In this document: in pieces, positions 12,975 to 62,195 of the stretch
Layout: every line of letters begins with the position of its first letter
How positions within the stretch are numbered: the first letter of the stretch is position 1
Source of the DNA: Prevotella sp.
GTDB lineage: Bacteria > Bacteroidota > Bacteroidia > Bacteroidales > Bacteroidaceae
Length of the DNA stretch: 64,000 nucleotides
NCBI GenBank assembly: GCA_024697645.1
Contig: JAILFH010000113.1
Span: 61,925-125,924, forward strand
Reading direction: 5' to 3'
Program-made: the position numbers and the translations under genes
Notes under the pieces: generated by a model
The model's input: only the letters and a program-made list of their open reading frames with translations
Told to the model about the DNA's origin: nothing
The model's database searches: none

Positions 12975-13175
12975 CTTTAGACTATACAGAGCAATGCTTT
13001 TGACCTTAGAGAGCATGCCTTTATACCTATATAAAGACGTGCTCTGTATGGTAGAGAGATGGTCTTTCTATGGTCAAAAGGATAACTCTTTATGGTAGAA
13101 AGGACTGCTCTGTATAGTCAAAAAGATGACTTTGTATGTTCTAAATGGTTTCTTCGCTTATTAGAAAAGATTCTT
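12975..13175. repeat. 22-bp degenerate tandem repeat array, locus 1 of 3
   Basis: Unit starts 12975, 12997, 13019, 13042, 13064, 13086, 13108, 13130, 13152; consensus CTTTnTAtnnTnnAAAGnnnnn. Confidence 0.85.
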
Positions 13176-35564: not shown

Positions 35565-36302
35565 ATGAAAATCATTAGCAAGACGATTCGCTGGGTGCTC
35601 GGCCTGTTCTTTGGCTCTACAATTCTGGCCGTTGTGCTCTATCGTTTTGTACCCGTCTATCTCACTCCGCTGATGGTCTCCCGCTGCGTGGAGCAGTTCC
35701 AGGCGGGTGAAGGCATCACCCTTCATCATCATTGGATTTCGCTCGAGAATATGTCGGGCCACATGCCTGTGGCAGTGATGGCCAGTGAGGACCAACGATT
35801 CCTGCTCCATCACGGCTTCGACTATGATGCCATTCAGAAGGCAGCCAAGCGAAACATGAAAGAAGGAAAGAACAAACTGGGAGCCAGTACCATCAGCCAG
35901 CAGACTGCGAAGAACGTGTTTCTCTGGCAGGGTCGCTCATGGGTGAGAAAGGGCCTCGAGGCCTATTTCACGGCGCTGATAGAACTCATGTGGTCGAAGC
36001 AGCGCATCATGGAAGTCTATCTCAACAGCATCGAAATGGGCCCTGGCATCTATGGTGTTGATGCTGTGGCAGAGTATCATTTCGGCAAGACGGCCAAGGA
36101 CCTTTCACGCTCCGACTGTGCCCTGATTGCAGCCACGCTGCCCAATCCCCGCAAGTTCAGCAGCAAGGAGCCAAGTGCCTACATGCGGCAGCGTCAGAGA
36201 CGAATTCAACATGAAATGAAATTCATTCCCACATTCCCCCGTGAAGGTGAGGACTACGACCCCACAACAGCCTCTGGAGGAATCTACAGGAATGGTAAAT
36301 GA
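35565..36302 (+). CDS. mtgA: monofunctional biosynthetic peptidoglycan transglycosylase
   Basis: AVMASEDQRFLLHHGFDYDAIQKA, GASTISQQTAKNVFLW. Confidence 0.95.
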   Translation: MKIISKTIRWVLGLFFGSTILAVVLYRFVPVYLTPLMVSRCVEQFQAGEGITLHHHWISLENMSGHMPVAVMASEDQRFLLHHGFDYDAIQKAAKRNMKEGKNKLGASTISQQTAKNVFLWQGRSWVRKGLEAYFTALIELMWSKQRIMEVYLNSIEMGPGIYGVDAVAEYHFGKTAKDLSRSDCALIAATLPNPRKFSSKEPSAYMRQRQRRIQHEMKFIPTFPREGEDYDPTTASGGIYRNGK

Positions 36303-36412
36303 TATGGCAACAATCACAGCGTAATGTGCATTTCAGTCGCTAAAAGTCAAGTTTCCCTCATCGAAAACTTGGCTTTTGTGTTACAATATTTGGTCGTGTC
36401 GTTTATTTTTTA

Positions 36413-36420
36413 TACCTTTG
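36413..36420 (+). promoter_or_regulatory. -7 box TACCTTTG for the carboxylase operon
   Basis: TAnnTTTG consensus. Confidence 0.6.
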
Positions 36421-36458
36421 CAGGCTGAAAACGACAGAACGAAATTTTATAGAAATAT

Positions 36459-38024
36459 ATGAGCAAACAAACAGAGAAAATCAAGGAGCTGATAGCCAAG
36501 CGCGAGAAGGCTCGTCTGGGTGGTGGCGAGAAGGCCATCGACAAGCAGCACCAGCGTGGAAAATATACAGCTCGTGAGCGTATTGAGATGTTAGTTGATG
36601 AAGGTTCGTTCGAAGAGTACGACATGTTCAAACTGCATCGCTGCCACAACTTTGGCATGGAGAAGAAACAGTTCCTCGGTGATGGTGTAGTAGTTGGTTC
36701 GGCTACCATTGGTGGCCGTCTGGTCTATGTCTCCGCACAGGATTTCACCGTCAATGGTGGTTCGCTTTCTGAGACCATGTCGCAGAAAATCTGTAAGGTG
36801 ATGGATATGGCCATGCAGAACGGTGCACCGATGATCTGCATGAACGACTCAGGTGGTGCACGCATCCAGGAGGGCATCTGCTCGCTGGCTGGCTACGGAG
36901 AGATCTTCGAGCGCAACATTCTGGCCTCGGGTGTCATCCCCCAGATTTCGGCCATCATGGGTCCGTGTGCAGGTGGTGCTGTCTATAGCCCCGCACTGAC
37001 CGACTTCATCCTGATGATGGAGAACACCAGTTACATGTTCCTCACCGGTCCTGCCGTCGTGAAGACAGTCACGGGTGAGAATGTCGATGCTGAGAGTCTG
37101 GGTGGAGCCAGTGTCCACGCTTCCAAGAGTGGTGTCACTTCGTTTACCGCCAAGACCGAGGAAGAGGCAATGGCCATGATTAAGACCCTGCTGAGTTATC
37201 TCCCTTCGAACAATATGGAGGAGGCTCCGCGCATTGAGTGCACAGACCCCATCGACCGCAAGGAAGACTTGCTCAACGAGATCATCCCTGACGATCCCAA
37301 CAAGGCTTACGACATGTATAAGGTCATCACAGCCCTTGTCGACAATGGCGAGTTCTTCGAGGTTCAGCCCAAGTTTGCCAAGAACATCATCGTAGGCTTT
37401 GCCCGCTTCAATGGCCAGAGCGTGGGTGTTGTAGCCAATCAGCCTGCTGCCTATGCAGGTGTGCTCGACACCAATGCCTCTCGCAAGGGGGCCCGCTTTG
37501 TACGCTTCTGCGATGCTTTCAATATTCCCATCGTGTCTCTGGTCGATGTACCAGGATTCCTTCCCGGAACAGGTCAGGAGTACAACGCAGTCATCCTGCA
37601 TGGTGCCCAACTCCTCTATGCCTATGGCGAGGCCACAGTTCCCAAGATCACCATCACCCTGCGCAAGTCCTATGGTGGCAGCCACATCGTGATGGGTTGC
37701 AAGCAGTTGCGTGCTGACCTGAACTTCGCATGGCCCTCGAGTGAGATTGCCGTGATGGGAGCCAGTGGTGCTGTTGCCGTGCTTTGTGCCAAGGATGTCA
37801 AGGCCAAGAAGGAGGCAGGTGAGGACGTACATGCATTCCTTGCTGAGAAGGAGGAAGAGTACAGCGACCTCTTTGCCAATCCCTATCAGGCAGCCCAGTA
37901 TGGCTACATCGATGATGTGATTGAGCCTCGCAACACTCGTTTCCGCATCTGTCGTGGACTGGCTCAGTTGGCCTGCAAGAAGCAGTCGCTGCCCGCCAAG
38001 AAGCATGGTTGCATGCCGATGTAA
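36459..38024 (+). CDS. biotin-dependent acyl-CoA carboxylase, carboxyltransferase subunit (methylmalonyl/propionyl-CoA type)
   Basis: GKYTARERIEMLVDEGSFEE, DSGGARIQEGICSLAGYGEIF, GPCAGGAVYSPALTDFI. Confidence 0.94.
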   Translation: MSKQTEKIKELIAKREKARLGGGEKAIDKQHQRGKYTARERIEMLVDEGSFEEYDMFKLHRCHNFGMEKKQFLGDGVVVGSATIGGRLVYVSAQDFTVNGGSLSETMSQKICKVMDMAMQNGAPMICMNDSGGARIQEGICSLAGYGEIFERNILASGVIPQISAIMGPCAGGAVYSPALTDFILMMENTSYMFLTGPAVVKTVTGENVDAESLGGASVHASKSGVTSFTAKTEEEAMAMIKTLLSYLPSNNMEEAPRIECTDPIDRKEDLLNEIIPDDPNKAYDMYKVITALVDNGEFFEVQPKFAKNIIVGFARFNGQSVGVVANQPAAYAGVLDTNASRKGARFVRFCDAFNIPIVSLVDVPGFLPGTGQEYNAVILHGAQLLYAYGEATVPKITITLRKSYGGSHIVMGCKQLRADLNFAWPSSEIAVMGASGAVAVLCAKDVKAKKEAGEDVHAFLAEKEEEYSDLFANPYQAAQYGYIDDVIEPRNTRFRICRGLAQLACKKQSLPAKKHGCMPM

Positions 38025-38052
38025 TTTTGTCTGATAAAAACAGTTGAATGTT

Positions 38053-38217
38053 ATGACGACCGACAAGAACATTTATGCTGCCATTGCATTGGCACTTCAC
38101 GAGTTTAAGGGCAACAACGTGCACGACAAGGAGCCTGGATTCATCACGATTCAGCCCCGCCACACGTTGTGGAATGCCAAGTTTCAAGTAATGACACTCA
38201 AACCTCAAAAGAGATGA
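38053..38217 (+). CDS. 54-aa small protein between carboxylase beta and biotin carrier (below the ORF-track cutoff)
   Basis: MTTDKNIYAAIALALHEFKGNNVHDKEPGFITIQPRHTLWNAKFQVMTLKPQKR*; stop overlaps the next start as ATGA. Confidence 0.75.
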   Translation: MTTDKNIYAAIALALHEFKGNNVHDKEPGFITIQPRHTLWNAKFQVMTLKPQKR

Positions 38218-38636
38218 AAGAATACAAATATACCATCGACGGAAAAGAATATGTTGTAGCCATTGGCGAAATCACCGACAACGTGGCTCAGGTGACGGTA
38301 AATGGTGAGGAGTTCCAGGTGGAGATGGAGCCTGAGAAGGAACCCGAGAAGAAGAAGGTTGTCCTCGGCCAGCCCGCTGAGAATACTGAGAGCGAGGCCA
38401 CACCTGCTGCCAATGTCAATGTGAACAATGCCGTGAAGGCTCCGCTGCCTGGTGTCATCACCGACATCAAGGTGAGCGTGGGCGACAAGGTGAAGAAGGG
38501 CGACGTAGTTGTTGTGCTCGAGGCCATGAAGATGGCAAACAACCTTGAGGCAGAGGCTGATGGCACCGTGACTGCCGTCTGCGTGAAGATGGGAGAGAAC
38601 GTCATGGAAGACGCTCCCCTCGTGGTGATTGAATAG
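38214..38636 (+). CDS. biotin/lipoyl-binding carrier subunit
   Basis: MKEYKYTIDGKEYVVAIGEI; C-terminal biotinyl motif VLEAMKMANNLEAEADGTV; ATG overlaps the previous stop. Confidence 0.93.
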   Translation: MKEYKYTIDGKEYVVAIGEITDNVAQVTVNGEEFQVEMEPEKEPEKKKVVLGQPAENTESEATPAANVNVNNAVKAPLPGVITDIKVSVGDKVKKGDVVVVLEAMKMANNLEAEADGTVTAVCVKMGENVMEDAPLVVIE

Positions 38637-38674
38637 AACTTGCTTTCAAAAATATTGAAAAAAGTCAAAACACC

Positions 38675-38740
38675 GAAGGGTGAAAAGGTAAAAATCTATA
38701 AAAAAAGATAGGTTTCAGCCTTTTCGCCCTTTGCTGATTT
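38675..38740 (+). terminator. stem-loop AAGGGTGAAAAGG...CCTTTTCGCCCTTT
   Basis: 12-13-bp imperfect stem between the carrier and glycogen synthase genes. Confidence 0.4.
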
Positions 38741-38761
38741 TTATTTTTCAATTTTTTTTAT

Positions 38762-38769
38762 TACCTTTG
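38762..38769 (+). promoter_or_regulatory. -7 box TACCTTTG for the glycogen synthase-like gene
   Basis: TAnnTTTG consensus. Confidence 0.6.
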
Positions 38770-38779
38770 CGTTGCAAAA

Positions 38780-39598
38780 ATGAGAATTATGGCTAAGAAA
38801 GTATTGTTCATCAATCAGGAGATCACTCCGTATGTACCCGAAACAGAAATGGCGTTAATGGGCAAACTGCTCCCCAACAAGATTCAGGAGAGTGGTTACG
38901 AAATTCGTACATTCATGCCCAAATGGGGATCAATTAATGAACGTAGGGGGCAGTTGCATGAAGTGCAGCGCCTCTCTGGCATGAATCTCATCATCGACGA
39001 CACCGATCATCCTATCGTCATCAAGGTTGCATCGATTCCTGGTACACGCATCCAGGTCTATTTCATCGACAATGAAGACTACTTCACAAAGCGTCAGATG
39101 ACTGTCGACGAGATGGGTGAGGAGTATCCCGACAATGGAGAGCGTGCCATCTTCTTTGCACGTGGTGTACTGGAGACCGTGAAGAAGTTGCGCTGGGCAC
39201 CTGACGTCATTCACTGTCAGGGCTGGATGGCGGCTGTGGTTCCCCTCTACATCAAGACTGCCTACAAGGATGAGCCCTGGTTCGCCAATACAAAGGTCAT
39301 CACCTCGCTCTTCCATGAGCAGCCGAAGGGGTCTCTCGGTGACAATTTCAAGCGCTGCATAGAGTTCCGCGATGCAAAGGCTGAGTTGCTCAGCGACTAC
39401 AAGGAGAATTTCGACTTCCTGGAACTCGGCAAACTGGCCATCGACTACAGTGATGGAGTCGTTCAGGCCAGCGAGGATGTGAACAAGAAACTCACGGCAT
39501 ACGCAGTCGACAAGAAACTGCCTGTCCTCAACTATCCCGGAGAGGACTTCGGCGAGGCCTATCTTGAGTTCTACAAACAAATTTGTCCTGAGGAATAG
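38780..39598 (+). CDS. glycogen/starch synthase, short Bacteroidetes form (GT5 N-terminal-like domain)
   Basis: KVLFINQEITPYVPETEMALMGKLLP, FMPKWGSINERRGQLHEV, PDVIHCQGWMAAVVPLYIK. Confidence 0.88.
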   Translation: MRIMAKKVLFINQEITPYVPETEMALMGKLLPNKIQESGYEIRTFMPKWGSINERRGQLHEVQRLSGMNLIIDDTDHPIVIKVASIPGTRIQVYFIDNEDYFTKRQMTVDEMGEEYPDNGERAIFFARGVLETVKKLRWAPDVIHCQGWMAAVVPLYIKTAYKDEPWFANTKVITSLFHEQPKGSLGDNFKRCIEFRDAKAELLSDYKENFDFLELGKLAIDYSDGVVQASEDVNKKLTAYAVDKKLPVLNYPGEDFGEAYLEFYKQICPEE

Positions 39599-39650
39599 CA
39601 TTTCCTTGGGACTACTCTTTTTCCTACTAAAGTTTTTTCAGCAACGTAAG

Positions 39651-41063
39651 ATGAAATTCAAATATCTTCTTTCTGCAGTTTTTACTGTTGCTATGGTGTC
39701 TGCATGCGACGACACAACAAACGACATTGGTACTTCCTTGACACACGATATGGACAACCTGGACGTCACTACCGACACGTTCCAGGTATCCTCCCGTTCT
39801 ATCATCGCTGATTCAGTCTATGCCCGCACCACTGTGGGCTATCTGGGAAAGATTCGCGACCCGGAGACTGGCGGCTACATCACTGGTAGTTTCATGACCC
39901 AGTTCCATGTGCTCGATGACTACGAGAACACATTCCCCAAGGCCGACAGCATCACAAGCAGGACTGACGATGGCTCCATCGTGGCCGACTCCTGTGAACT
40001 GCGCCTGTTCTACACAAGTTTCTATGGCGACTCTCTGGCTCCGATGAAACTCAGAGTTGAGGAACTGGCTACTCCCGTGCTTGAGAACCGACTCTACTAT
40101 TCCAATTTCAATCCGACCACGAGCGGCTATCTCAGAGAGGACGGCATCAACAAGGAGATTGCCTATTCGCTCATCGACATGAGTGTCTCGGAATCCTCAC
40201 GTAGCGCTGATGGCTACACCAACAACATCCGAATCCCCCTCAACGACTCCTATACAGCAAAGGATGGCACCGTCTATAGCAACTACGGTACCTATCTCAT
40301 GCAATCCTACTACAAGAATCCTGAGGTGTTTGGCAATTCGCTGCGCTTTGCCAAGGAAGTGGTTCCTGGATTCAACTTCGAGTATACTGGTGGACTGGGC
40401 GCTATGGCCAATATCGTCAATAGCAAACTCATTGTCTATTTCCACTACCAGGGCACCGACTCCATCGAATCAGGTATTGTTGAGTTCGGTGGCACCGAGG
40501 AAGTGCTGCAGACAACAGCCATTGAGAACGACCGCCAGACCATTCTCGACCTGGCAGCCGACAACACCTGCACCTATCTGAAGACTCCTGCAGGCATCTT
40601 CACTGAGATGACGATTCCCGTGGACAACATCCTGAGTGGACACGACAACGACACCATCAATACGGCAAAGATTGTGATTCCCAGAATCAACAACACCGTA
40701 GAGAGCGACTACTCGCTGGGCACTCCAGCCAATCTGCTCATGATTCCGAAGGACAGCCTATACTCGTTCTTTGAGAACAGCCGCACGGTTGACAATCGCA
40801 CATCCTATCTGGCCACGAACACCTATCTGGGTTCGAACAACACCTACCAGTTCGCCAACATCTCCAACCTGATAGCAGCCATGAATGGCAATCGCTCGTC
40901 AGAGAACTGGAACAAGGTTGTGCTCATTCCAGTGACGGTTTCCACGATCTCTACTTCCATTGTCTCCCACACCCTGTCGCTCACCAGTACCAAACTCGTA
41001 GGAGGCTCTGCGAATCCCCATGATCCAATCAAGATTAGCGTCATCTATAGCAAATTCAAGTAG
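39651..41063 (+). CDS. DUF4270 family lipoprotein
   Basis: MKFKYLLSAVFTVAMVSACDDTTNDIGTSL lipobox; start at internal ATG 39651. Confidence 0.88.
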   Translation: MKFKYLLSAVFTVAMVSACDDTTNDIGTSLTHDMDNLDVTTDTFQVSSRSIIADSVYARTTVGYLGKIRDPETGGYITGSFMTQFHVLDDYENTFPKADSITSRTDDGSIVADSCELRLFYTSFYGDSLAPMKLRVEELATPVLENRLYYSNFNPTTSGYLREDGINKEIAYSLIDMSVSESSRSADGYTNNIRIPLNDSYTAKDGTVYSNYGTYLMQSYYKNPEVFGNSLRFAKEVVPGFNFEYTGGLGAMANIVNSKLIVYFHYQGTDSIESGIVEFGGTEEVLQTTAIENDRQTILDLAADNTCTYLKTPAGIFTEMTIPVDNILSGHDNDTINTAKIVIPRINNTVESDYSLGTPANLLMIPKDSLYSFFENSRTVDNRTSYLATNTYLGSNNTYQFANISNLIAAMNGNRSSENWNKVVLIPVTVSTISTSIVSHTLSLTSTKLVGGSANPHDPIKISVIYSKFK

Positions 41064-41228
41064 TCTGAGCGCTGGAGTAGGGAAGTCCTGCACCTGAGCG
41101 TCAGAGGCTGTCTTTTGAACATTCCTGAGCCCGACTCAATGCATGAGGACAACTATCGCCACGTCCACAGGAGACTTGCTTCTCTCACCTCTCCCTCAGA
41201 ACATCAGTTTTAATATCGATAGATTTCT

Positions 41229-41360
41229 ATGGCAGACAATTTCCTAGAGCGTCACTACGAGGAATATGAAGCCCGCAAGGAAGCGTGGCTCAAGCGCAAG
41301 AAGCACTTCCCAAAGAAGGTCAGCCGAACCCTCGAGAAACCTGACGACGAAGCCCTGTAG
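41229..41360 (+). CDS. 43-aa basic small protein (below the ORF-track cutoff)
   Basis: MADNFLERHYEEYEARKEAWLKRKKHFPKKVSRTLEKPDDEAL*; followed by a terminator at 41385-41415. Confidence 0.65.
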   Translation: MADNFLERHYEEYEARKEAWLKRKKHFPKKVSRTLEKPDDEAL

Positions 41361-41384
41361 AATCTTTCCTTCCACCCATATAGT

Positions 41385-41415
41385 CATGCCCTCCCTCCAG
41401 AGGGCATTTTTTGAG
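41385..41415 (+). terminator. stem-loop ATGCCCTC/GAGGGCAT + T6
   Basis: Perfect stem with T run. Confidence 0.7.
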
Positions 41416-41454
41416 TCTGTATGGTTGAATTCTTTTCTATGATATAAAGCACAT

Positions 41455-41660
41455 CTTTCTACCTTACAAAGCAATGCTTTATGCCCCTATAAAGATGGTC
41501 TTTATACCCCTATAAAGCATATCTTTCTATAGTTAAAAGGATACCTTTCTATAGTCAAAAGGACACCTTTCTACAGTCAAAAGGACACCTTTCTACAGTC
41601 AAAAGCATATCTTTCTATGGTCAAAAGGATTGCTCTTTATACTCCAGAGTATGTCTTAAC
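41455..41660. repeat. 22-bp degenerate tandem repeat array, locus 2 of 3
   Basis: Unit starts 41455, 41477, 41500, 41523, 41545, 41567, 41589, 41611, 41633; best units CTTTCTATAGTCAAAAGGACAC. Confidence 0.9.
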
Positions 41661-41826
41661 ACACTAAAAAGAATTGCTCTCTTTGGTGAAGGAGTAAGCC
41701 TTATAAAAAAACATAAATTTAATTTGTAAAGAAAATGGGCAGTTGGTGCTGAATCTGGCATTGACTGCCTGTTTTTTTATTAGACAAAAAATCGGGAAAA
41801 TGTTTTGCGGTGTCGTGGGAAAAGGG

Positions 41827-41834
41827 TAAATTTG
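41827..41834 (+). promoter_or_regulatory. -7 box TAAATTTG upstream of the four-helix-bundle gene
   Basis: TAnnTTTG consensus. Confidence 0.55.
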
Positions 41835-41890
41835 CGGAGATATAATAAGGTGGTTTGCACGCAATCGTCTAATACGTTGACCAAAACAAC

Positions 41891-42592
41891 ATGACCATGG
41901 AACAACTCAATGCAAAAGATGAGAAAAATCCGCTGGAGGCAGCAGCGATGATCGATACAGTGCTTCGGCAGGAGAAGGACTGGAATACGCTTTATTTCTA
42001 TCAGAAGACGGTGGTACTCTATCAGATGACCTATGTGTTCTGCCAGCGGTTTCTACCAAAGTATGGCGACCGAACTGTCGACCAGATGGTGCAGGCTGCC
42101 CGTTCGGGTAAGCAGAACATCGTTGAAGGAATGGCCGATGGTGTGACTTCGATGGAACTGGAACTGAAACTGCTTAACGTGGCACGGGCCTCTCTGAAGG
42201 AACTACGGGAGGACTATGAGGACTATCTCTTGTCGCGCAGGCTGAGCCGATGGGTGAAGGGCCATCCTCGCTATAAAGCCTTGCTGGACTTCTGTCGTAA
42301 TCGGAATCAACTTGAGGACTATGAGCCGTTCTTCATGCGATGGAGCGATGAGGAGATGGCAAACACGGCTCTCTCGCTCTGCCATTTCACTGACAAGATG
42401 ATGGTGAAGTATGAGAAGTATCTGGAGCAGGACTTTGTAGAGAATGGGGGGATAAGAGAGCGGATGACTGCTGCCCGTCTGGGCTATCGAAACATCCAGA
42501 AGGCTACCATTGAAGCAAAGGATCGGGAGATTGCCGCCCTGAAAGCCGAGATTGCGAGGCTCAAGGACCGCATCAGGGAACTGGGTGGGTAG
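41891..42592 (+). CDS. four-helix-bundle (S23/IVP/Avd-like) protein with C-terminal coiled coil ('four helix bundle suffix' type)
   Basis: YQKTVVLYQMTYVFCQRFLPKYGDRTVDQMVQAARSGKQNIVEGMADG (xxxSGxxNIxEG motif) and C-terminal AKDREIAALKAEIARLKDRIREL. Confidence 0.85.
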   Translation: MTMEQLNAKDEKNPLEAAAMIDTVLRQEKDWNTLYFYQKTVVLYQMTYVFCQRFLPKYGDRTVDQMVQAARSGKQNIVEGMADGVTSMELELKLLNVARASLKELREDYEDYLLSRRLSRWVKGHPRYKALLDFCRNRNQLEDYEPFFMRWSDEEMANTALSLCHFTDKMMVKYEKYLEQDFVENGGIRERMTAARLGYRNIQKATIEAKDREIAALKAEIARLKDRIRELGG

Positions 42593-42605
42593 TGGCTGGG
42601 GGTAA

Positions 42606-42736
42606 GTAGTTGGACTAGTATCCCTAGTAATCCTAGTTTTCCTAGTTAGGCTAGTTCTCCTAGCATCCCTAGTTCTCCTAGTTTTCCTAGTTAGGCTAGT
42701 TCTCCTAGTCAGCCTAGTTTCCCTAGTAATCCTAGC
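42606..42736. repeat. 9-bp tandem array: 14 CTAG tetramers at exact 9-bp spacing (CTAGnnnnn)
   Basis: CTAG at 42615, 42624, 42633, 42642, 42651, 42660, 42669, 42678, 42687, 42696, 42705, 42714, 42723, 42732; degenerate GTAG in phase at 42606. Confidence 0.97.
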
Positions 42737-42769
42737 AAAAAAAGCCAGCCCCTAAAAACTCTTTCTTCA

Positions 42770-43591
42770 CTACTCCTTGAACATTTTGTTCTCCTGGGCA
42801 GGGATGGGCATGAAGCCTTCGGTGAGGAGTTGTTTTTCCTGCATGACTGTTTCGAGTTGGGCAAAGAAGGAGGTGCGGCCCAGTTGCTCGAGTCGTTCAG
42901 CCATCAGACTCTCGTCGTAGTTGAGGCGGGTGAGGGTTGCTGAGAGTTGAATGAGTTGCTGCTCGCCGATAGTTCCACGATGGTGCTGATAGCCGATGTA
43001 TTCAGTCTGCCTGAGAATCTCGCAAATGTTTGGGTCGGGCTCATCAAGGGCTTCGACCTTCTGCTGAATCTGCTGGCGGATGTTCTGGTCGTGCACTGCG
43101 ATGAGGTCGGCATAGAGCGAGACAATCCGTGCTGCATAGTCTTCAGAAGTAATGGATGTGGTAACTATCGGATTTCCAATGAGTTCGACCGAAAGTTTAG
43201 GATATTGTCTCTGGAGGTTCTCCTGTTCAATCTGGCTCGAAGCAATCAGGAGCAGAGTAGTCGGGAGAGACTTCGGGTCGTTCAGTCCAGCGTGGCTGAA
43301 GGGAAGGTCGCGATGAGGGCTGTTCCAAGGCTGGAGCGTGCTCATCGGAGTGATGATGCAGGGAATGAGCAACTGGCGTGCACGTCGGAGATAAGATGCA
43401 ATGGCATGATTGTCGTAGCCAAAGAGATGGATGAGGTCAGGATGCTCGTCAGTGATCGAGATGTTGTCAACCTTCATCAGTTGACTGCGGAGCATCCCAA
43501 CGAGTTCCTGGCAGATGACAGTCTCTTTCGGGCAGTTGTCATTGCCTTCAGAGGGTATAAGCCCTTTTGCGACGTGCAGTTGAATTCTCAT
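42770..43591 (-). CDS. hypothetical glycosyltransferase-like protein, 273 aa
   Basis: ORF adjacent to a GT2 gene on the same strand; family not firmly recognised. Confidence 0.6.
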   Translation of the reverse strand: MRIQLHVAKGLIPSEGNDNCPKETVICQELVGMLRSQLMKVDNISITDEHPDLIHLFGYDNHAIASYLRRARQLLIPCIITPMSTLQPWNSPHRDLPFSHAGLNDPKSLPTTLLLIASSQIEQENLQRQYPKLSVELIGNPIVTTSITSEDYAARIVSLYADLIAVHDQNIRQQIQQKVEALDEPDPNICEILRQTEYIGYQHHRGTIGEQQLIQLSATLTRLNYDESLMAERLEQLGRTSFFAQLETVMQEKQLLTEGFMPIPAQENKMFKE

Positions 43592-43612
43592 AAGCCATTT
43601 AGTTTTAGGGAA

Positions 43613-44941
43613 TCAGACCTTGTGCGACGTGAAGTCAGTCTTGTTGGCTCGCCAATAGCGAATGTGATGGAACATCTTATGCCAGATGCCACTGAGTTCG
43701 TAGGGGTAGATCTTCCAGGAGGGAATGTCCTCGTCGAATGCCCTGATGACCTTCTTCGCAAAAGTGGTGCGGAGAATGATGGTGAGCAGGAGCGAGAAGA
43801 CGGCTACACCCAGAAGAATCCAGCGCTGGGTGAGACCCGCAAAGACGCCAGTGGCAACGGCAGCGATGAAGGTCAGATGGAGTGCCAGTTCATCAATGAA
43901 AGGCAGCAGGCGATGACGGAAACTCCGACGGAGGAGTTTGCGTGTGTGAGTGTAGAAGATGTGCATGTTGCGCCAGGCATGCGGGGTAGGGGCATCGTAG
44001 ATGACCCAGGCATTGCGCTCTGCTGCCACAGCAGTCTGCCTGCGCTTAGCATACTTGTTGATGAGGAAATCGTATTCACCACGAATGGCCTGCAGATTGC
44101 CTCGATAGCCGTCACCAGCAATGAACTCGCTCTTGCGGAAGGCAATGTTGCCCTCGATGGAACGATAGGCTGTGCGGAGAGCCTCACGCATGGTGTAGCA
44201 AGCCTGTTGGAGTCGCTCAAAGCGATAGTAAGGTTTGGCCTCGTTGTCGAAGTTGTTGTAGCCAATCACGAGGTTGTGGTCGTCGTCACAGTAACTGGCA
44301 ATAGTCGCGAGCCACTGGGGACCACTGGGAGTACAGAATGCATCGACCAGCACAATCCACTCGTTGTGGGCAGCCTTCACACCCAGCGTGATGGCCAGTT
44401 TCTTCTTGCTCATGTAGCGCGAGGAATCAGGAACGTAGGTGGCGTAGAGGCGGCTGTTGGAAGAGAAACTGTTGATGACGTCCTCAGTGTCGCTGTCGCC
44501 TTTCTCGGCTACTACCACTACCTCGAAGTTGTCGTATTCCTGATTGAGAAACTCGGGCAGGTGTTGACGGAGCATCGGCGCCTGCTTGTGTTGAGCGGTG
44601 ATGAGCAGGGTCAGGGCAGGCGTGTTCTTATTCTCAGATGTCTCATTCTTCTCAGATGTTGTGGCTACTGCAGTGCTTACTTTCTCAGCAACTACAGGCT
44701 CTATGTCGGCTTGTGCAGCCTCATTGTCATTGGCTGTTTCGTTGCCTTCAGTTGCTGCTTCGTTATCGTCAGTTGCTGCTTGGGCATCACTAATGGTTGC
44801 CTCTTCGTCGCCTACAGCAAAGTCTTCTTCATCGGCTGCAGGCTGTGGAAATTTCCTGAAGAACGGACTAAGAAAAGGACTTAGTGCGGCCAGTAGCAAT
44901 ACCGCCGCACCAAGTATGAGTGTTATCAGGTCGAATGTCAT
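43613..44941 (-). CDS. family 2 glycosyltransferase, membrane-associated
   Basis: TLLITAQHKQAPMLRQHLPEFLNQEYDNFEVVVVAEKGDSDTEDVI, KLAITLGVKAAHNEWIVLVDAFC; N- and C-terminal TM segments. Confidence 0.88.
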   Translation of the reverse strand: MTFDLITLILGAAVLLLAALSPFLSPFFRKFPQPAADEEDFAVGDEEATISDAQAATDDNEAATEGNETANDNEAAQADIEPVVAEKVSTAVATTSEKNETSENKNTPALTLLITAQHKQAPMLRQHLPEFLNQEYDNFEVVVVAEKGDSDTEDVINSFSSNSRLYATYVPDSSRYMSKKKLAITLGVKAAHNEWIVLVDAFCTPSGPQWLATIASYCDDDHNLVIGYNNFDNEAKPYYRFERLQQACYTMREALRTAYRSIEGNIAFRKSEFIAGDGYRGNLQAIRGEYDFLINKYAKRRQTAVAAERNAWVIYDAPTPHAWRNMHIFYTHTRKLLRRSFRHRLLPFIDELALHLTFIAAVATGVFAGLTQRWILLGVAVFSLLLTIILRTTFAKKVIRAFDEDIPSWKIYPYELSGIWHKMFHHIRYWRANKTDFTSHKV

Positions 44942-44964
44942 TTTTTTATCTGTAAACTGCTTTT

Positions 44965-46128
44965 TTATATCATTTCTTCTGCAGTATAACCGACAGGTAG
45001 TCTGCGGCAGTTATACTGACTTGCCATGATTTCGCCATAGGCTCCAGCCGACCGCATGACCAAGAGATCACCCCGATGGCAGCGGTTCAGGTCGAAAGCC
45101 TTCACGAAGACATCACTCGACTCACAGATGGGGCCAACCACATCGTAGGTCTCCTCTGGCTCATCGCTCGAGATGTTTTCAATGCGATGGAAGGCATTGT
45201 AGAGTGCTGGACGAATGAGGTCGGTCATGCCTGCATCGACAATGGCAAACTGCTTGGCAGCACCCTGCTTCACATAGAGCACACGGGTGACAAGCGTTCC
45301 ACACTGGGCCACTACGGCTCTACCAAGTTCGAAATGCAGTTGCTGACCCGGGCGGAGTTTCAACTTCTTGGCATAGGTGTCGAAATAGTCCTTGAAGTCG
45401 GGAATCGGCATGTGGTTCGGGTGGTCGTAACTGATGCCAAGTCCACCGCCTACATTGATGTGCTCCAGTTTGACGTGCTTGCGTTCGAGTTGTATCTGCA
45501 GGTCGTTGATTCGGTTGCAGAGTGATTCAAAATCACCCATATCGAGAATCTGCGAGCCGATGTGGAAGTGGAGTCCAACAAACTTCACATTGTTCATCGT
45601 CTCAGAGATGCTGATCACCTCATCCATATCGCGCATGGCAATGCCGAACTTGTTCTCAGCCAGACCAGTGGTGATGTTGGCGTGAGTATGAGCGCCCACA
45701 TTCGGGTTTATACGGAGGCATACACGCGCTACCTTGCCCTTGGCTGCAGCCAACTCGTTGATGACCTCCAGTTCGGGAATGCTCTCCACATTGAAGCAGA
45801 AGATGTCGGCATCGAGACCGAGATTGATTTCCCAGTCGCTCTTGCCCACACCTGCATAGACAATCTTTGAGGCAGGGAATCCAGCATTGAGTGCTGCTCG
45901 GATCTCGCCACCACTGACGCAGTCGGCACCCAGTCCAGCCTGACTGATGATGCCCAGAACCTTCGGGTTCGCATTGGCCTTGACGGCATAGTGCACGTGA
46001 AAGCAATTGTGCTTTTTCGTTTCCTGATTGATGGCGTCAAGCGTCTGACGCAGAAGGGCTGTGTCGTAGTAGTAGAACGGAGTCTCTCGCTGAGAGAACT
46101 TCTCTACAGGGAATGTTCCTTTAATCAT
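44965..46128 (-). CDS. lysA: diaminopimelate decarboxylase
   Basis: TPFYYYDTALLRQTLDAI, HYAVKANANPKVL, GLHFHIGSQI, CESSDVF. Confidence 0.95.
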   Translation of the reverse strand: MIKGTFPVEKFSQRETPFYYYDTALLRQTLDAINQETKKHNCFHVHYAVKANANPKVLGIISQAGLGADCVSGGEIRAALNAGFPASKIVYAGVGKSDWEINLGLDADIFCFNVESIPELEVINELAAAKGKVARVCLRINPNVGAHTHANITTGLAENKFGIAMRDMDEVISISETMNNVKFVGLHFHIGSQILDMGDFESLCNRINDLQIQLERKHVKLEHINVGGGLGISYDHPNHMPIPDFKDYFDTYAKKLKLRPGQQLHFELGRAVVAQCGTLVTRVLYVKQGAAKQFAIVDAGMTDLIRPALYNAFHRIENISSDEPEETYDVVGPICESSDVFVKAFDLNRCHRGDLLVMRSAGAYGEIMASQYNCRRLPVGYTAEEMI

Positions 46129-47441
46129 GAGAACAACTTTTCGCTCAGACTTTGCAATGCACGCTTCTTGTCGCTACCCTTGATGAGGAAAGAGATGTTG
46201 TAGTTGGAACCACCATAGGAGATCATGCGCACGGGGATGTTCTGCATGGCCTCGAGCACGAGAGTCTCGAAACCAAGGTTGCTCCAGTCGAGGTCGCCCA
46301 CAACGCAGATGATGGCCATATCGCTATCAACGGTGACAGTACCGTATTTCTTCAGTTCATTGACGATGTCGGTCAGATGGGCCTGATTGTCGATGCTCAT
46401 CGAGACGCCAACCTCAGAGGTGGCAATCATGTCGATAGGAGTCTGATAGGATTCGAAGATCTCGAACACCTTGCGCAGGAAACCTGTTGCCAGAAGCATG
46501 CGCGACGACTTGATCTTAATAGCGGTGATATTGTCCTTGGCAGCAACGGCCTTGATCTTGCCGCGCATGATGACGTTGTCGATGATTGTTCCGTCGGCCT
46601 GAGGATTCATCGTGTTCTTCAGTCTGACGGGAATGCCTGCAAACTTAGCGGGCTGTACGCAGGTGGGGTGGAGGATCTTGGCACCGAAGTAAGCAAGTTC
46701 GGCAGCCTCTTCGAAGTTCAGTTGGCGCACGGCCTCAGTCTTCTCAACCACACGAGGATCATTGTTGTGCATTCCATCGATGTCGGTCCAGATCTGAATC
46801 TCATCAGCGGGAAGTGCTGCACCCACAAGTGAGGCAGTATAGTCGCTGCCACCACGCTGCAGATTGTCGACCTCACCATAGGCATTGCGGCAGATGAAGC
46901 CCTGCGTAACGTAGATCTGATAGCCTTCGTTCTTCGCCATGATAGCAGCCAGTTTCTCCTTGATGTACTGTGGGTCAGGCTCACCGTTCTTGTCGGTGCG
47001 CATGAAGTCGAGAGCCGACAGCAGAACAGCCTTGATGCCCTGTTCCTGCAGGTAGTTCACCATCATGTTTGTCGACATCACTTCGCCCTGGGCCACGATA
47101 CTCTTCTCCTCAAACGAAGTGAAGATGTCCTTTGTGAACGAGCGGAGATAGTCGAACTCCTGACGCAGGAAGTCGCGAGTGAGTTGCTTATAGTGGTCGG
47201 TGCTGTAGAGTTCTTCCACGTGCACCATGTATTTCTTTTCGAGTGTGTTGATGATTTCGTTAGCCCCCTCGGGGTTCTTTTTGTAGAGATAGTCGGAAAT
47301 TTCTACAAGCGAATTGGTTGTACCGCTCATAGCAGAAAGTACGACAAATGTCTGTTCGCCCGACTCCGTGACAAGAGAGGCGACATTCTTGATGCGTTCA
47401 GGGGAACCCACTGATGTTCCGCCAAATTTCATTACTTTCAT
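46125..47441 (-). CDS. lysC: aspartate kinase
   Basis: MKVMKFGGTSVGSPERIKNVASLV, RGGSDYTASLVGAAL; overlaps lysA by 4 bp. Confidence 0.95.
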   Translation of the reverse strand: MKVMKFGGTSVGSPERIKNVASLVTESGEQTFVVLSAMSGTTNSLVEISDYLYKKNPEGANEIINTLEKKYMVHVEELYSTDHYKQLTRDFLRQEFDYLRSFTKDIFTSFEEKSIVAQGEVMSTNMMVNYLQEQGIKAVLLSALDFMRTDKNGEPDPQYIKEKLAAIMAKNEGYQIYVTQGFICRNAYGEVDNLQRGGSDYTASLVGAALPADEIQIWTDIDGMHNNDPRVVEKTEAVRQLNFEEAAELAYFGAKILHPTCVQPAKFAGIPVRLKNTMNPQADGTIIDNVIMRGKIKAVAAKDNITAIKIKSSRMLLATGFLRKVFEIFESYQTPIDMIATSEVGVSMSIDNQAHLTDIVNELKKYGTVTVDSDMAIICVVGDLDWSNLGFETLVLEAMQNIPVRMISYGGSNYNISFLIKGSDKKRALQSLSEKLFS

Positions 47442-47452
47442 TGTCTTTGTGC

Positions 47453-48157
47453 TTAAATTGTTGTTGTATCCTGTTTGTTGTATTCTTGTGTAATCTCTTT
47501 AATGTTGCCGTCTTCGCATTGATAGACGATGCCTGGGAACTTGTCGAGCATGGGGATGTTGTGGGTCGACATGACGACAGCCGTACCAGTTTTAGTGATG
47601 TCCTTGAGCAGGGCCACGATGTTGGTAGCGGTCTCTGGGTCGAGATTGCCAGTAGGCTCATCGGCGACAATGATTTTCGGAGTGTTCAGCAATGCGCGAG
47701 CAATGGCAATACGCTGCTGCTCGCCACCAGAAAGTTCCGACGGCATCTTGTAACTCTTCTCGCTCATGCCGACATCGGCCAGCACTTCCTCGATGCGCTT
47801 GTTGATGTCCTCCTTCTTCTTCCATCCAGTAGCCTTGAGCACAAAGCGGAGATTCTGAAACACGTTGCGGTCGTGCAGCAATTGGAAATCCTGAAAGATG
47901 ATTCCCATCTCCTTCCTCAGTGCAGGCACTTCCTTACGGCGAATCTTGGTCAGGTCGCGTCCAAGCACCTCAGCCTGTTCCGCCTCGTCGGGGTTGATGT
48001 CAATCTCGCAGTACATCGTTTTCAGGAGCGAACTCTTGCCCGATCCTACTTTTCCGATAATGTAGATGAATTCACCTTCGTCGGCATGGAAGTCCACTTC
48101 GTCGAGAATCAGAGCATCTGCCTGATAGACTTTCACTTTCTTATATTCTACTAGCAT
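47453..48157 (-). CDS. cell-division-type ABC ATPase (FtsE-like)
   Basis: [52 protein letters not shown]. Confidence 0.92.
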
Positions 48158-48429: not shown

Positions 48430-48605
48430 TGATTCGTATTTGTGATTTGCGACTCGTAGTTTGTGTTTGCGCTTTGTCAATTTGGCTTGATAAATATGTG
48501 CTTTGTTTTGTGCTTTGTTTTGTGCTTTGTTTTGCGATTTGTTTATGCGGTTTGTTTTGCTATTTAGTTTGCGATTTGTAATTTGTAATTTGTTATTTGC
48601 TATTT
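48430..48605. repeat. degenerate T/G-rich tandem array with 12-bp core period (GTGCTTTGTTTT), decaying into 7-bp (TAATTTG) units
   Basis: Core units at 48498, 48510, 48522, 48534. Confidence 0.75.
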
Positions 48606-48645
48606 GTAAAAAGTCCCTCCGAAAGAGTGATTCCTTCGAAGGGAC
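48606..48645 (-). terminator. secA terminator stem GTCCCTTCGAA...TTCGGAGGGAC + TTTTT
   Basis: 10/11-bp stem with T run on the minus strand. Confidence 0.7.
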
Positions 48646-60822: not shown

Positions 60823-60834
60823 GTTGTAGCCCCT

Positions 60835-60955
60835 CCGCATTCCTTCTTCCGCATTCCTTCACTCCGCATTCCCGTCCTTCGCATTCCACGTCCTCCGCAT
60901 TCCTCGTCCTCCGCATACTCGTTGTCCGCATTCTCCGTCCTCCGCATACTCTTTC
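60835..60955. repeat. 14-16-bp tandem array of CCGCATTCC-type units, 8 copies
   Basis: Unit starts 60835, 60849, 60864, 60879, 60895, 60911, 60926, 60942. Confidence 0.92.
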
Positions 60956-62139: not shown

Positions 62140-62195
62140 ATTACTCATTTCTCATTACTCATTACTCATTTCTCATTACTCATTTCTCATTATTC
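62140..62195. repeat. exact 7-bp tandem array ATTACTC/ATTTCTC, 8 copies
   Basis: Units at 62140, 62147, 62154, 62161, 62168, 62175, 62182, 62189. Confidence 0.95.

Follow-up and report, generated by a model that had tools for sequence, protein, structure and literature searches.

What does a strictly phased tandem array do directly downstream of a gene for a small helical protein? The question arises in the window, the whole stretch of 64,000 nucleotides of Prevotella sp. DNA that was analysed (contig JAILFH010000113.1), in which an earlier note had described CTAG tetramers recurring at exact intervals beside a four-helix-bundle gene. It proposed that the protein, or something recruited by it, recognises or maintains the array at this place. 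The association itself extends far beyond the window, and the wider pattern points to a small mobile element.

The phased array and the adjoining gene

The array occupies positions 42606 to 42735 and has no assigned strand. A degenerate, in-phase GTAG at 42606 is followed by 14 CTAG tetramers, one at every 9 bp from 42615 to 42732 with zero slips. The exact phasing is thus as first described. The pattern (CTAGN5)2CTAG has 12 overlapping matches in the array, whereas 100 dinucleotide shuffles contain 0. All 14 units agree in the four columns of the core, and the other five columns are variable, with some bias (T in the first, C in the last), so that the described contrast between a fixed CTAG and a changing 5-mer is also borne out. 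The same is true for the rarity of CTAG: outside the array, only one tetramer in the window is rarer, and CTAG occurs 15 times against 107 expected on a trinucleotide basis, a sevenfold depletion. Tandem Repeats Finder (TRF) calls a period of 9 and, in addition, a 45-bp higher-order repeat. Units 3 to 5 (42633-42659) return as units 8 to 10 (42678-42704), both reading TTTTC-TTAGG-TTCTC, and this internal duplication (42633-42704, no strand) is consistent with the segmental duplication that had been proposed.

The adjoining gene (41891-42592, forward strand) encodes a protein of 233 amino acids. Its end is separated by 13 bases from the GTAG and by 22 from the first CTAG; the downstream array is the only one evident beside it. 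The protein is of the S23/IVP type, with a four-helix domain, a TIGR04258 suffix and a C-terminal, coiled-coil-like helical tail. It scores 68.4 bits with TIGR04258 (cut-off 40) and 30.7 bits with TIGR02436 (cut-off 24), both over the NCBIfam cut-offs, and these two matches uphold the original four-helix-bundle call. The match to PF05635 (25.5 bits) is under the gathering score. The AlphaFold2 (AF2) model has a mean pLDDT of 89, and its leading Foldseek matches are the S23-family structures 2GSC and 2RLD, at a probability of about 1 and with weak E-values (best 0.011); the TM-scores of these structures, by target, range from 0.64 to 0.82. Scans of Pfam and NCBIfam returned four-helix families and weak coiled-coil models only, and no transposase family. 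None of the families of known defence systems in PADLOC-DB was matched. A phage origin was also considered and rejected: the phage collection contained no match, and in IMG/VR the suffix-less protein had two matches and the suffix protein had none.

Several other repeats occur in the window. A 22-bp tandem repeat (AAAGGATACCTTTCTATAGTCA) lies at 41514-41630, some 260 bp before the four-helix gene, and a similar 22-bp array is found at 13069-13145. Short-period arrays (TTTGTAA-like with a period of 7, and neighbours) are situated between two genes at 48497-48618, and tandem CCTCCGCATTCCCGT-like units with a period of about 16 at 60832-60947. At 62140-62192 there is a tandem array of ATTACTC with a period of 7. 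This heptamer also flanks a TIGR02436 gene at another place in the genome (L016, 1914-1964), and the array may accordingly be a solo form derived from that type.

Association of arrays with the gene family

Enrichment of CTAG arrays with a 9-bp period (CTAG-9) near the gene family had been set beforehand as a check, and it is found at the level of genomes as well as loci. In a survey of 251 genomes of the family Bacteroidaceae, most of them metagenome-assembled (MAGs), CTAG-9 arrays are present in 53 and TIGR04258 in 89. Both occur together in 41 genomes against 18.8 expected (Fisher p=2e-12, with shared ancestry ignored), and the reversed-pattern control gives 0 in all 251. Twelve of the 53 array-bearing genomes are without a TIGR04258 match, three of which (G226, G156 and G114) are 96-97% complete. 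Around 80 related genes, phased arrays reach a density of 21.5 per 10 kb up to 300 bp from the gene, compared with 1.3-1.9 per 10 kb from 300 bp to 10 kb; this is 12 to 15 times the density farther out, and amounts to 102 arrays within 300 bp against 6.7 expected. A period of 9 dominates, followed by 10 and then 8. Seven close relatives (L072, L082, L084, L085, L086, L117 and L132) come from MAGs whose titles name Kiritimatiellae, Victivallales or Verrucomicrobia, which may reflect either transfer or misbinning.

The suffix-less TIGR02436 genes show the same tendency, with 45 arrays within 300 bp against 5 between 300 and 1500 bp. Their arrays mostly have a period of 7-8 bp, and they extend over several phyla. 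Most of their same-period pairs are mutually inverted. Inverted flanks are nevertheless not a universal rule: they hold for most TIGR02436 pairs and fail for TIGR04258, where the flanking arrays are mostly on the same strand and inverted similarity exceeds same-strand similarity in just 7 of 53 pairs. The two subfamilies may therefore not share one mechanism.

Clade-specific cores and dispersed arrays

TIGR04258 genes mostly have arrays with a step of 9 or 10 bp; each clade has its own short core, which is frequently a palindrome. Besides CTAG-9, related genes carry CTAG with a period of 10 (CCTAGG), TCNGA, TATA and CCGG with a period of 9, and others. When ten core labels are placed on a tree of 139 proteins, 20 changes are required against 78 for shuffled labels, a contrast that is inflated by near-copies; no core could be assigned to 51 genes eligible for the tree. 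The special status that had been given to CTAG is thus not retained: other clades have other cores and periods, and CTAG as a universal element is ruled out. In two loci (L030, 1105-1812, and L051, 1054-1746), the array itself supplies the coding sequence for the C-terminal tail of the suffix protein (QTGQTGQTS..., SNRSGQSNQS...).

Arrays of a given type are also dispersed at a distance from the genes. In the window's own genome, (CTAGN5)2CTAG has 78 matches, against 0 for the reversed-pattern control, and at least seven further CTAG-9 arrays are present at unrelated loci (contigs C32, C52, C57, C61, C65, C83 and C88). Including the one in the window, these arrays, at least eight in number, have the core and period in common and differ in their 5-mers. 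The further arrays occupy intergenic positions or, on C32 and C83, reading frames. The copy on C83 adds about 45 residues to a variable linker of a U32 peptidase and is absent from five aligned homologues; the reading frame is kept because the period is 9 bp. A second TIGR04258-type gene of this genome, on C96, is accompanied by TCNGA-9 arrays. Dispersal of TCNGA-9 in the same genome was considered and discarded, as 26 of 29 five-unit matches adjoin the C96 gene.

Across genomes, with gene-adjacent arrays removed, dispersed arrays are commoner where a gene of the matching type is present for each of the three cores tested (CTAG-9, p 4e-4; TCNGA-9, 1e-4; CTAG-10, 9e-5; Mann-Whitney U test, shared ancestry ignored). 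A single type is clear in G235 and G064 (CTAG-9) and in G060 and G015 (TCNGA-9), and G199 has one gene of each of these two types and numerous arrays of both. There are also misfits: G155 has 42 CTAG-9 matches, yet neither of its fetched genes is flanked by CTAG, and G017 has 73 although its gene is of the CTAG-10 type. In G015, identical 41-base TCNGA-9 segments occur in inverted orientation 15.6 kb apart (contig C2, 255676-255716 and 271243-271283), which suggests copying of an array segment.

Signs of mobility

The most direct signs come from plasmid-borne TIGR02436 cousins. Sixteen plasmid genes were sampled from Cyanobacteria, Gemmatimonadota, Alphaproteobacteria and Flavobacteriia, and inverted heptamer or octamer arrays are legible by eye around most of them; one, L288, has none clearly. 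Some of these cousins with inverted heptamer arrays reside inside operons, between nrdB and nrdA, cas6 and cas4, or cas10 and cmr3. The CRISPR-associated cases are on cyanobacterial plasmids, where four-helix genes with short-period arrays separate cas6 from cas4 in two type I-D loci and cas10 from cmr3 in a type III-B locus (L285, L286 and L291). In Nostoc plasmids, corresponding gaps exist with and without the cassette within matches of 85-95% identity, that is, as occupied and empty sites, and neighbouring gaps of one operon hold different cassettes. One site harbours gene-less elements made of inverted arrays, and another gene-less element is nested inside a four-helix reading frame that is intact on two other plasmids. 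Two folds of such gene-less elements came out as hairpins. A consistent target-site duplication could not be read from the few Nostoc sites. Judged from these sequence comparisons, the TIGR02436-type genes of cyanobacterial plasmids look like tiny mobile elements.

For the window's own TIGR04258 subtype, the indications are indirect. Its distribution is patchy and multi-copy, with 0 to 6 per genome, fragments included. The nearest relative of the window protein is 83-86% identical, belongs to another genus, has CTAG arrays of its own and shares no flanking gene with the window; its array (L199, 1370-1493) has mixed 9- and 10-bp steps that alternate over part of its length. Comparison of sites gave no exact empty TIGR04258-cassette site: homologues of the right-hand gene of the window are 28-36% identical, and the flanks of a P. 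nigrescens cassette match diverged sequence only. From the patchy distribution, the unrelated flanks and the in-frame array insert, we infer that this subtype may be mobile as well. Recombination between same-strand flanking arrays could then excise the gene, with a solo array left behind.

A proposed small mobile element and its alternatives

The empty and occupied sites of the TIGR02436 cousins, together with the dispersed arrays, argue against a single binding locus and for a mobile element. The notion of one binding locus beside the gene, as first put forward, needs revision: arrays commonly lie on both sides of the gene, and further arrays of the matching type are scattered elsewhere. Nor did the analysis give any sign of the templating that had been suggested. 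On balance, the gene in the window and the array next to it are probably one copy of a very small kind of mobile element, composed of an S23-type protein and the phased arrays cognate to it, from which solo arrays would derive. In this model, an S23/IVP-type gene is flanked by arrays in which a short motif recurs at a constant distance. Its protein, perhaps a toroidal oligomer like S23p of Xanthomonas, would bind the repeated cognate core, either as DNA or as transcribed RNA, and this binding would spread the arrays and maintain them. The autonomous form would be the cassette with the gene, and the dispersed gene-less arrays would be its derivatives, some of them in reading frames where the 9-bp period would preserve the frame. 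Recognition of the core by the protein, and the direction of causation, are suggested here by patterns in sequence.

It could also be imagined that the arrays are operator-like or centromere-like. The four-helix protein would then act on a dispersed regulon as a sequence-specific regulator or nucleoid protein, and the flanking arrays would be autoregulatory. An invariant core with a variable spacer would fit a protein that binds cooperatively, each unit spanning roughly one turn of the helix, and the spacing of 9-10 bp, the dispersal of arrays of matching type and the intergenic position of several arrays in the own genome agree with such a role. It is nevertheless rather unlikely, in view of the arrays inside reading frames, the unrelated loci with no obvious common function, the period of 7-8 bp in the sister subfamily, which is off the helical repeat, and the empty and occupied Nostoc sites with their nested insertion. 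A separate host process might equally produce the arrays, with four-helix genes merely inserting into them or surviving best beside them and the protein inactive on them. The array-bearing genomes without the gene speak for such a process, as do the same-strand flanks, which resemble a gene inside a pre-existing array, and the segmental duplication, which would be a slippage-type expansion; we regard it as improbable because core and period track the protein clade, and because the type of dispersed array tracks the type of gene within a genome. Finally, a microsatellite born from a single recent slippage, without any link to the gene, could account for the internal 45-bp duplication. Its likelihood is negligible in view of the eight or more arrays of one genome, which agree in core and period but not in their 5-mers, of the enrichment at 80 gene loci and of the empty reversed control; the multi-locus and multi-genome enrichment rules it out for the window array.

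Relation to known systems and significance

RAYTs are HUH (Y1) transposases, and in RAYT-REP systems one gene family is coupled to cognate, partly palindromic, genome-dispersed repeats. The putative elements described here resemble them in combining a gene family with dispersed cognate repeats and differ in that the window protein has no HUH/Y1 match. A likeness to Avd, the accessory protein of diversity-generating retroelements and a member of a related four-helix family, is limited to cyanobacterial proteins, for which NF033474 gives 17.6-28.5 bits, below its cut-off of 80; the model does not match the window protein, and annotations of the fetched plasmid neighbourhoods include no reverse transcriptase.

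The nearest known thing is the intervening sequence (IVS) of 23S rRNA with an S23p reading frame, for example in Coxiella burnetii, which has been described as a selfish element (PMC4990558). Structures of S23/IVP proteins have been solved, and the proteins have no known function (PMC4990558). The window protein belongs to the same fold family, and the TIGR02436 cousins are likewise a reading frame between inverted repeats. However, a search with Rfam at the gathering threshold gave no match in window positions 36000-48000. As the element lies outside 23S rRNA, it is not classed as an IVS; it differs further in its phased, genome-dispersed arrays of short units and in the mostly same-strand flanks of TIGR04258.

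Heptamer tandem repeats (e.g. TAACTGA) have been reported from Cyanobacteria, Beggiatoaceae and Bacteroidetes with no identified partner gene (PMC4679880). S1, Csp or Csr proteins were proposed for them, and the text contains neither 'S23' nor 'four helix' (PMC4679880). They too form dispersed short-period arrays, often intergenic and sometimes in reading frames. The plasmid four-helix genes bear heptamer arrays, and in their general form the reported repeats look like gene-less counterparts of the TIGR02436 branch; the window array differs from them in its period of 9 instead of 7. Among open-licence papers, none was found that links S23-type proteins to such arrays, and an earlier report is possible.

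More tentatively still, the elements described here may belong to one unrecognised class of mobile elements without a known transposase, in which an S23-fold protein would recognise a core and spread phased arrays, the clade would set core and period, and the heptamer repeats and the S23 reading frames of IVSs would be members. If true, the link between S23 proteins and heptamer repeats would provide a testable partner for each. It would also point to a simple recognition code between protein and repeat, with core and period set by clade, and would suggest mobility without a known transposase.
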